From Sphingopyxis microcysteis (GTDB taxonomy: Bacteria > Pseudomonadota > Alphaproteobacteria > Sphingomonadales > Sphingomonadaceae), in the NCBI RefSeq assembly GCF_012274265.1, contig NZ_JAANYY010000003.1:248001-312000 (forward strand): 64,000 nt of DNA, given 5' to 3'. The translations under genes and the position numbers were made by a program. The notes beneath the pieces are model-generated. The model worked only from the letters and a program-made list of their open reading frames with translations. It did no database searches and was not told where the DNA came from. Every line of letters starts with the position of its first letter. The first letter of the stretch is position 1. Shown piece by piece: positions 16,933 to 19,175 of the stretch.

Positions 16933-17352
16933 CTAAACCCGCCCCGGTGCCCGCGCGCGGATGAAATTTTCCAGTGCGACAAAGATCATCTCGCGCGCGT
17001 CGCTGCCCAGCATTTCGGCGGTCAGCACGTCGAAGGCGACGCGGTCGCCATGCGCGGCGGCGGTGACCATGTCCGCCAGCAGCGCTTCGTCGAAGCTGGC
17101 GCGGGGGCAGCATGGCGGGGCGACGGCAAAGGGATCGGGCCAGCTGTGGCCGATCGCCTCGACGACCAGCCGGTATCGCCGGGCGGCGAGGACGTTGCCC
17201 CATCGCCGCTCCAGTTCGGGCATCGGGTCGCGATCGTTGCGGCGGCAGACGATGCAATAGCGCAGCGCCAGCACGGCCTGCGCCGCCTCGACCGACAGGT
17301 CGCGGATCAGCGGCTGCGTCGTCAGTTGCCGGATTAGGGTGCTGCTTTGCAT
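16933..17352 (-). CDS. Unknown protein under a Fur-like iron box
   Basis: A 139-residue cytoplasmic protein. The frame is open to 17538, but ATG 17352 is chosen: GGGAG lies 11 bases before, and the longer version would read through a hairpin and a promoter-like palindrome. Features: helical N-terminus (SSTLIRQLTTQPLIRDLSVE), YCIVCRRN (CxxC) and PPCCPR, which could bind metal. No family is recognised. The upstream palindrome TTGCGA-N5-TCGCAA (17459-17475) and a hairpin with a U tract suggest iron control, perhaps with attenuation. Confidence 0.65.
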   Translation of the reverse strand: MQSSTLIRQLTTQPLIRDLSVEAAQAVLALRYCIVCRRNDRDPMPELERRWGNVLAARRYRLVVEAIGHSWPDPFAVAPPCCPRASFDEALLADMVTAAAHGDRVAFDVLTAEMLGSDAREMIFVALENFIRARAPGRV

Positions 17353-17396
17353 GGCTTTATCGTCTCCCGGCGGTTGCCGTCCTCCCTCCCCGCTTT

Positions 17397-17433
17397 TGAA
17401 AAAGATGCCGGTCGCCGCGAGGCAGCGACCGGC
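17397..17433 (-). terminator. Hairpin plus U tract in the leader of the 139-aa gene
   Basis: GCCGGTCGC (17407-17415) pairs with GCGACCGGC (17425-17433). On the minus strand the stem is followed at once by ATCTTTTTC. It has the form of an intrinsic terminator, yet lies between the proposed promoter and the start codon, so it could be an attenuator or the end of a short leader RNA. Confidence 0.55.
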
Positions 17434-17458
17434 AGGAGGGGACTGCCCAACCTTGCTA

Positions 17459-17475
17459 TTGCGAATTAGTCGCAA
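17459..17475. promoter_or_regulatory. Fur-like iron box TTGCGA-N5-TCGCAA
   Basis: A perfect 6-base inverted repeat with 5-base centre (TTGCGAATTAGTCGCAA). On the minus strand it exactly fills the 17-base spacer between TTGCAC (17481-17476) and TAGCAA (17458-17453), a plausible -35/-10 pair. The same TGCGA-N5-TCGCA pattern recurs twice before bfd. Confidence 0.6.
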
Positions 17476-17624
17476 GTGCAAGCGAAAATATTTCCGGATG
17501 CGGCATGCCCGCGCCACGGCGTTTGCACGGCAGTCCACTGCGACTTTTCCGCCTTAGTACATTGGCGCAGCTTGCGCCGGTCGCCGAGCCGGGCTGTGTG
17601 TCTGGCACGCGAGGAGGCAAGTTC

Positions 17625-18173
17625 ATGGGCAAGGTGCGCCGGTTCTTGGCGGTGGCGATCGCGGTGGGCGTTGCGGCGACAGCCGCCCCGGCCGGTGCCG
17701 AAGGCGGTTGCCCGGCGGGTCTTCAGCCATGGCGCGTCCCGATTCAGGGGCCCGGTGATTGCGTGCCGATTCCGGGTTATCACGACGCGCCGGACCGGCA
17801 ACCCGAACCTGCCCCGCGCCCGTTACCGCTCGAATGGTTTTCAACGTCGTCGGCCGTGGCGTTCGGAAGCCGGAAGCGCGACGCCGCGTTCCCGACCGAT
17901 TTCGTTTATTTCAAAACCTCGGTTTCCGACGAGGCGGATGCCAGGAAGCTGGCGGTCGCGAAATGCGCCGAAAAGGCCTTGTTCAACTGTGCGCTGGTCG
18001 GATCGATCACCAACGGGTTCATCGCCGTCTATAGCGACAGGCAGGGTCGGCTTGCCGCGCATGGCGGCCCCGAGCGGGACGAAGTGATCCGTGAAATTCA
18101 CCAAATATGCGCAGCCGCCAATCAGGTCTGCAAAATTCGCCAGCTAATCGATTCGTCGCCGATCCGCATGTGA
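17625..18173 (+). CDS. Secreted DUF4189-like protein
   Basis: A 182-residue exported protein. ATG 17625 follows GAGGAGGCAAG. A signal peptide ends at about residue 26 (APAGAEG). A Pro-rich linker leads to a C-terminal domain with AVAFGS, AVAKCAEKALFNC and CAAANQVCK, the alternating Ala/Cys pattern of DUF4189. The cysteines probably form disulfides in the periplasm. Function unknown. The frame extends upstream to 17505 but without a ribosome site or signal sequence. Confidence 0.72.
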   Translation: MGKVRRFLAVAIAVGVAATAAPAGAEGGCPAGLQPWRVPIQGPGDCVPIPGYHDAPDRQPEPAPRPLPLEWFSTSSAVAFGSRKRDAAFPTDFVYFKTSVSDEADARKLAVAKCAEKALFNCALVGSITNGFIAVYSDRQGRLAAHGGPERDEVIREIHQICAAANQVCKIRQLIDSSPIRM

Positions 18174-18237: not shown

Positions 18238-18720
18238 TCAATCGTCGTGGGCGGGCTTCGACTGCAGCTGGATATAATTGGCGATGCCCATCCGCTCGAT
18301 CATCTCGAACTGCTTTTCCAGCTCGTCGACATGATGCTCCTCGCTTTCGAGGATGTCGGCGAACAGGTCGCGGCTCACATAGTCGCGGACGCTTTCGGCG
18401 TGCGCGATCGCATCTTTGAGCAACGGGATCGCTTCTTCCTCGAGCGCCAGGTCGGCCTTCAATATCTCTTCGACCGTTTCGCCGACGCGCAGGCGGCCCA
18501 GCATCTGGAAATTGGGCAGCCCGCCCAGGAACAGAATACGGTCCGCCAGCTTGTCGGCGTGCTTCATTTCGTCGATCGATTCCTCGCGCTCGAAATGCGC
18601 CAGCTTCGCGACTCCCCAATTGTCGAGCATCCGGTAATGCAGCCAATATTGGTTGATTGCGGTCAGCTCATTCTTCAACGCCTCGTTGAGGAAATCGATG
18701 ACCTTTTCGTCGCCCTTCAT
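18238..18720 (-). CDS. bfr: Bacterioferritin
   Basis: A 160-residue four-helix subunit of the 24-mer iron store. The ferroxidase ligands E18, E51, H54, E94, E127 and H130 are all in place. M52 is the axial haem ligand, so this is a haem-binding bacterioferritin rather than a plain ferritin. The ribosome site is AGGACAG. It lies 100 bases after bfd on the same strand, so the pair is probably one iron-regulated transcript. Confidence 0.95.
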   Translation of the reverse strand: MKGDEKVIDFLNEALKNELTAINQYWLHYRMLDNWGVAKLAHFEREESIDEMKHADKLADRILFLGGLPNFQMLGRLRVGETVEEILKADLALEEEAIPLLKDAIAHAESVRDYVSRDLFADILESEEHHVDELEKQFEMIERMGIANYIQLQSKPAHDD

Positions 18721-18820: not shown

Positions 18821-18994
18821 TCAGGCGGTCGCGGCGACGTCGCTGATGATATTGCGAGCGAAAGGCAGGCATTGGCCGCATTTGGGTTTGCGACCCAATT
18901 GCGCATAAGCCGCCTTGGCACAGCGCAACTGGCCATCGCGCGCGACATCGCGCAGCTGGCTTTCCCTTATTGCGTTGCAGACACAGACAACCAT
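18821..18994 (-). CDS. bfd: Bacterioferritin-associated ferredoxin
   Basis: A 57-residue [2Fe-2S] protein with cysteines at 4, 6, 39 and 42 (CxC-x32-CxxC), the Bfd signature. Bfd docks on bacterioferritin and passes electrons to release stored iron. The frame is open further upstream, but the ATG at 18994 gives the normal Bfd length and has AGAAGGA before it. Three TGCGA-N5-TCGCA-like palindromes precede it, which fits Fur-type induction under low iron. Confidence 0.9.
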   Translation of the reverse strand: MVVCVCNAIRESQLRDVARDGQLRCAKAAYAQLGRKPKCGQCLPFARNIISDVAATA

Positions 18995-18995
18995 G

Positions 18996-19071
18996 TGCGA
19001 ATCCTTCTCAACAATGCCGATGTAGGGATAGTGCGAGAGATTCGCAACAGGAAAGATGCGACTGGTTCGCA
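18996..19071. promoter_or_regulatory. Cluster of Fur-like iron boxes upstream of bfd
   Basis: TGCGA-GAGAT-TCGCA (19032-19046) and TGCGA-CTGGT-TCGCA (19057-19071) are perfect 5-base inverted repeats with 5-base centres, 25 bases apart. A third, imperfect one (TGCGA-ATCCT-TCTCA, 18996-19010) overlaps the ribosome site. The motif resembles alphaproteobacterial Fur boxes. Binding is inferred. Confidence 0.6.
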
Positions 19072-19175
19072 ATCCGAACAGCCACTTTTTTCCCGGTTCC
19101 GGCCCTTGCCCGAAAAGTGATTCGCGGGCATAGGCGCGCCCAACTTCCCCGCACTTCTTTGCAAAGGCCCGCCCC

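Follow-up and report, generated by a model that had tools for sequence, protein, structure and literature searches.

A conserved Fur-like box, promoter and terminator upstream of a 139-aa protein gene in Sphingopyxis: a candidate Fur-controlled short leader RNA

In Sphingopyxis microcysteis the gene for a 139-aa all-helical protein is preceded by a promoter whose spacer is filled by a Fur-like box, and by a short leader that ends in an intrinsic terminator. The box, the promoter spacing, the hairpin and the position of an 18-nt core, GCAGTCCCCTCCTGCCGG, are present in all 73/73 close orthologue loci of the genus. Judged by this conservation, the arrangement of box, promoter and hairpin is real and more than chance. 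We propose that a Fur-repressed promoter would produce an RNA of ~48 nt that acts in trans through its anti-Shine-Dalgarno-like 5' end, and that occasional readthrough would express the gene. We regard this reading as about evenly poised between right and wrong.

Results

The locus lies in a 64,000-nt stretch of contig NZ_JAANYY010000003.1 (positions 248,001 to 312,000), here called the window; all coordinates are window positions unless a contig is given. It was compared with 80 Sphingopyxis genomes, in which orthologues with >55% identity to the 139-aa protein were classified as close. The protein was matched in 77/80 genus genomes and 73/77 matches were close. Among 199 family genomes, genus members included, 49 had a match. 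A distant set of 45 loci was also assembled, with 28–45% identity and with four loci from the same tool-defined genus. The features are listed in Table 1.

Table 1. Features of the leader RNA locus and its neighbours in the window.
Feature	Coordinates	Strand	Remarks
-35 hexamer TTGCAC	17476..17481	-	TTGNNN here in 73/73 genus loci; TTGTAT in 50
Fur-like box TTGCGACTAATTCGCAA	17459..17475	-	fills 17-bp spacer; in 73/73 genus loci
-10 hexamer TAGCAA	17453..17458	-	TAGC in 73/73 loci
Predicted short leader RNA, ~48 nt	17399..17446	-	predicted start to end of U-tract; from coordinates and conservation
18-nt core GCAGTCCCCTCCTGCCGG	17429..17446	-	largely unpaired anti-Shine-Dalgarno-like 5' end plus start of stem; identical in 70/73 loci
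Intrinsic terminator	17399..17434	-	hairpin 17434-17406 plus tail UCUUUUU; stem conservation
GGACGGC, degenerate copy of downstream GGACTGC element	17376..17382	-	6/7 pairing in this genome
Gene for 139-aa all-helical protein	16933..17352	-	directly downstream of leader; ATG 17352-17350
Bacterioferritin gene bfr	18238..18720	-	upstream neighbour; TIGR00754, 219 bits
Bacterioferritin-associated ferredoxin gene bfd	18821..18994	-	Fer2_BFD, matched with longer reading frame of same end

The original prediction held that the box exactly fills the 17-base spacer between TTGCAC and TAGCAA. The sequence confirms this, and the spacing is kept in 73/73 genus loci, where the six bases 5' of the box start with TTG and TAGC follows directly after the box. 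From the first base of the -10 hexamer to the start of the core the distance is 12 nt in 71/73 loci and 13 nt in 2. Because the distance from promoter to core is constant, the conserved stretch should be the 5' end of the RNA, and the predicted transcription start is ~17446 on the minus strand. A simple sigma-70 scan of the window did not list this promoter because TAGCAA is a poor -10 hexamer. The case for the promoter rests on its conservation in 73/73 loci, instead of on the scan. TTGCGA-N5-TCGCAA occurs only once within the 64-kb window, and the box at 17459-17475 is the window's top site for a profile built from the 73 genus loci, its own locus included.

The terminator hairpin has 13 pairs (10 G-C), the longest stem among the nine terminator-like sites found between 15 and 20 kb of the window, where shuffled sequences gave 4.4 sites on average. 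The GC hairpin with CTTTTT that had been predicted ahead of the 139-aa gene was confirmed, with a hairpin in 73/73 close loci. The predicted ~50-nt RNA ending near 17397 needed adjustment: the U-tract ends at 17399 and the start lies near 17446, which gives ~48 nt. Across the genus the RNA would measure 46–64 nt from core to U-tract. Stem cells were paired in 98.9% over 69 distinct sequences, with two-sided changes in 5/11 pairs. The core is identical in 70/73 loci while the stem and the spacer turn over with compensatory changes, and the hairpin varies in length and sequence; the 5' part is the most conserved stretch of the leader RNA. The most divergent carrier, S. yananensis, with 58% protein identity, combines the same core with a quite different stem. 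A terminator-like sequence was also found upstream in 39/73 loci. As it stands behind a separate gene, bfr, the leader and the 139-aa gene look like a transcription unit of their own.

The core appears to be confined to Sphingopyxis. It was not found in any of the 45 distant loci, and one match with four mismatches (L024) was judged to be chance. An RNA model searched against 249 family genomes, with filters that lose weak matches according to the tool's own warning, found Sphingopyxis (3/5 genus members drawn) and one weak match outside it (genus g33, E 0.0074, with a terminator-like hairpin). A scan of contigs for the exact core, in which the gene was not used, returned 55 stretches. Eight of the 55 had no box and were taken as chance matches. 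The other 47 were Sphingopyxis-type loci, of which two (L165 and L169) are cut by an edge, with the gene outside the stretch. In complete loci the leader RNA was always found with the gene, in 73/73 close orthologues (a consequence of how that set was drawn) and in 45/47 loci of the exact-core scan. Seven of the 80 genus genomes had no RNA-model match. In G251 the core sits cut at a contig end, G122, G210, G254 and G270 carry only distant homologues of the 139-aa protein, and G227 and G240 have neither an RNA-model match nor a homologue.

Iron genes lie close by. Of the 45 named core loci, 43 have bfr upstream in the same orientation and 41 have bfd; 39 have purS on the opposite strand. bfr is missing from L154, whose upstream sequence is just 451 bases long, and from L156, where 7.8 kb contain no bfr. 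Within flanks of ~1–1.5 kb, bfr was present in 67/73 close loci versus 0/45 distant loci. At the start of bfd there is a cluster of three Fur-like boxes (18995, 19031 and 19056, spanning 18995-19072), which suggests direct Fur control of bfd-bfr. The genome has a gene for Fur (C1:114863-115222, 132 bits); a further member of the Fur family, with a weaker match, is Zur-like by eye. Between bfr and the leader RNA there is a divergent DUF4189 gene (17625-18173, plus strand); it was matched in the flanks of only 1/73 close loci and so looks like a recent insertion.

Distant homologues of the 139-aa protein mostly stand behind Fur-like boxes as well. With a profile made from Sphingopyxis boxes and a score >8, a box was found ahead of 35/45 distant homologues versus 15/400 random window stretches, controls that include the window's own sites. 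These counts, the box in 73/73 close loci, bfr upstream and the fur gene together give good support to the original assignment of the palindrome as an iron (Fur) box.

The AlphaFold2 model of the protein is all-helical, with a mean pLDDT of 86.5. In 50 aligned sequences W71, C81, D88 and E89 were nearly invariant (≥48/50), as was R31 (49/49). Neither the Pfam nor the NCBIfam copy searched gave a match up to E 1, the PDB gave no sequence match, and PHROGs gave one match with E 0.097. Comparison of the model with known folds revealed nothing clear: the best Foldseek E was 0.52, and the best VIA hit, a cyanophage ejectosome chain (Z 7.5, rmsd 3.2, 110 aligned), falls in the range that the tool warns about.

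Two of the 35 boxed distant loci, L005 (G075) and L013 (G005), show a terminator-like hairpin in the stretch from box to gene, versus 0.4 expected in shuffled leaders; 33/35 have none, and the same detector finds the hairpin in 72/73 close loci. The two loci come from two other genera of the family. Their hairpins are strong (13 and 14 pairs) and stand by eye behind a C-rich stretch, and the letters of their leaders have no resemblance to the Sphingopyxis core. A terminated leader between a Fur-like box and the gene is not unique to Sphingopyxis; this core is. The RNA may have arisen more than once, or may change fast between genera. L101 (G254) and L102 (G270), small-genome members of the same tool-defined genus, have leaders of 108–110 nt with C-rich stretches behind a Fur-like box; the two leaders are alike and have neither a U-tract nor the core.

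The original prediction offered attenuation or a short iron-responsive RNA. When the 73 leaders were folded with the terminator's 3' arm kept unpaired, the cost was at least 11.2 kcal/mol (median 15), and structure prediction found no mutually exclusive antiterminator within 11.2 kcal/mol of the terminator in any of them. RNA-only attenuation is therefore disfavoured; protein-assisted antitermination may occur. The short RNA fits better, given that the 5' part is the most conserved.

Pairing within the leader was examined for two stretches of the conserved 5' end. For CCCCUCC none of the 73 spacers offers a 7-base partner (G-U allowed), while shuffled spacers gave 2–4. GCAGUCC, the first seven bases of the core, has a downstream 7/7 partner (G-U allowed) in 35/73 loci; permuted 7-mers averaged 1.1 and never exceeded 17. 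The figure of 35/73 is inflated by shared ancestry. A fairer count, with one representative per spacer cluster, is 11/27, where permuted 7-mers averaged 0.4 and never exceeded 4. The variants GGACTGC, GGATTGC and GGGCTGC are all able to pair with GCAGUCC. The downstream complement suggests cis pairing in the readthrough mRNA. Two results speak against such pairing: structure prediction uses it in only 17/35 readthrough mRNAs, and the complement in this genome is imperfect (6/7).

Candidate targets in trans were sought among iron genes and ribosome-binding sites. No pairing site was seen in sdhC in the 14 genus loci checked, whose start codons are uncertain, or in bfd in 40 loci. For bfr, CAGUCC finds a 6/6 partner between -30 and +6 in 19/57 distinct start regions, which was judged not conserved. 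GGAGGGG-N-ATG occurs at 118 places in the genome, 100 of them among the matches listed. Of the 19 GGAGGGGA-type starts among the matches listed, 18 were examined by eye and included no obvious iron protein. What weakens the trans reading most is that no convincing target emerged among sdhC, bfr, bfd and the GGAGGGGA starts.

With at most one mismatch, GGAGGGGACTGC occurs at seven places in the genome. The two exact places, the leader RNA locus and the leader of an RcnB-like gene, are same-sense copies and were rejected as targets. The RcnB-like leader carries GTCATCGGGCAG(A)TCCCCTCCCCCTGAC, for which a hairpin is possible by eye (L178, G000:C1 near 622399; L235-L240, L243 and L247-L276), and its GCAG(A)UCCCCUCC is nearly the same as a stretch in the leader RNA. 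A leader of the form GTCATCGGGC...CCTGAC was seen, with variants, in the 30 best RcnB-like orthologues. At another place (L180, G000:C1 near 397442) a same-sense near-copy, GCAATCCCCTCC, stands by eye upstream of a reading frame starting MASN.

Rfam gave no match near a family cut-off in the window's leader region or in the loci of five relatives, and nearly all weak matches fall outside the leader. One weak match that overlaps the leader end in L031 (1430-1491, opposite strand, CRISPR-DR16, 19.2 versus 35 bits) was taken as chance. The leader RNA is not suhB (RF00519), which had no match here or in the five loci; the genome's RF00519 match lies elsewhere (G000:C5:297785-297859). SuhB of Sphingopyxis granuli TFA is a 61-nt sRNA conserved in Sphingopyxis (PMC6563040). 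Both RNAs are short and conserved in the genus, and they occupy separate loci.

Discussion

The observations can be assembled into the following scheme. When iron is sufficient, Fe-Fur would occupy the box inside the promoter and block it, as suggested by the box, by the presence of a fur gene and by the iron genes nearby. When iron is scarce, the promoter would fire at ~17446, and most transcripts would end at the conserved terminator at ~17399, which gives ~48 nt here and 46–64 nt genus-wide. The 5' end, GCAGUCCCCUCC, is predicted to be mostly free of pairing and is similar to the anti-Shine-Dalgarno end of 16S rRNA. Most likely it base-pairs with target mRNAs at their ribosome-binding sites and reduces translation, in the manner of RyhB-type RNAs. 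A minority of polymerases would read through, so that the 139-aa protein is expressed. In about half of the loci a partner of GCAGUCC in the readthrough mRNA (e.g. GGAYUGC or GGGCUGC) could hide the 5' end.

The leader might instead work only in cis. The terminator and the conserved 5' element would then determine what share of the Fur-driven transcript extends into the 139-aa gene, and the pairing of GCAGUCC with its partner, or the anti-Shine-Dalgarno stretch, would control translation of the readthrough mRNA, with no targets in trans. In every complete locus (73/73; 45/45 named) the RNA sits immediately 5' of the gene, which agrees with this, as do the downstream complement in 35/73 loci with its G-U-compatible variants, the lack of trans targets among those examined, and the two distant loci with a terminator between box and gene. 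Since the leaders of those two loci suit the trans and cis readings alike, they leave the odds of the two unchanged. Against an exclusively cis role, no alternative fold competes with the terminator, and strong conservation spans the whole of CCCCUCC, which has no 7-base spacer partner in any of the 73 loci. On balance we think it unlikely that the leader acts in cis alone.

We consider it improbable that the core, instead of seeding base pairing, is where a protein or some other RNA (an RNA chaperone, for example) binds and alters termination. The near-absolute conservation of so short a stretch would suit it, and a similar GGGCAG(A)UCCCCUCC lies in the predicted hairpin of the RcnB-like gene leader; the likeness to an anti-Shine-Dalgarno sequence is the simpler account. 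An ordinary Fur-regulated gene with a chance hairpin in its 5' UTR would match the 33/35 boxed distant homologues that have no such hairpin. It is contradicted by the hairpin and core in 73/73 close loci, with compensatory changes, and we consider it very improbable.

The short RNA that we favour would be of the RyhB-like kind in a new form, judging by a Fur-like box and a terminator that are seen and a short transcript that is predicted. With RyhB, PrrF, NrrF, FsrA and IsrR, the last a further Fur-repressed iron-sparing sRNA, it would share a Fur-like box in the promoter, a short RNA (here predicted) with an intrinsic terminator, and an unpaired stretch prone to pairing. It differs from RyhB-type RNAs in its predicted length of only ~48 nt, in being the leader of a protein gene, in the anti-Shine-Dalgarno-like stretch at the very 5' end, and in that no conserved site was found here in sdhC, bfd or bfr. 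The alphaproteobacterial sRNAs NfeR1, CcsR and GsrN have a CCUCC-type anti-Shine-Dalgarno stretch in common with the leader RNA, a likeness drawn from their descriptions and an Rfam scan; we know of no Fur control of these three.

RyhB, PrrF, NrrF and FsrA are named in PMC3751524, where the Caulobacter operon CC0682-CC0681, considered here as a candidate relative, is speculated to hold Fur-repressed sRNAs. RusT of Caulobacter crescentus is a 118-nt, intergenic, Hfq-bound RNA that is induced by iron starvation and controlled by NtrYX (PMC11005374). Like the leader RNA, for which induction is predicted, RusT is an alphaproteobacterial RNA tied to iron starvation. According to the same paper, no Fur-controlled sRNA had been identified in Caulobacter, an alphaproteobacterium that keeps Fur (PMC11005374). 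Rli51 of Listeria is a prematurely terminated 5' UTR that acts in cis and in trans, and a more stable antiterminator is predicted for it (PMC11394854). Both it and the RNA described here are terminated leaders, but no antiterminator was seen here. Among the matches listed from the open-licence literature, none concerned a Fur-controlled sRNA of Sphingopyxis or sphingomonads, and the excerpted text of a paper on S. granuli TFA (PMC7713065) mentions neither Fur nor such an RNA.

We suggest tentatively, and with more doubt than confidence that the claim will hold in full, that the leader RNA represents a new Sphingopyxis RNA family and would be the first base-pairing sRNA of an alphaproteobacterial Fur regulon. 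It would be made by early termination ahead of a co-regulated gene and would carry an anti-Shine-Dalgarno seed at its extreme 5' end, hidden in the full-length mRNA by pairing with its own leader. Other genera may have unrelated RNAs at the same place.

Fur-controlled sRNAs explain iron sparing in several well-studied bacteria. With a conserved candidate that has defined ends, a clear promoter and a linked gene, the gap of the Caulobacter type can be tested directly in Sphingopyxis, an environmental genus with published mutants. The locus would also add a case in which a regulatory RNA and a protein seem to come from a single promoter.
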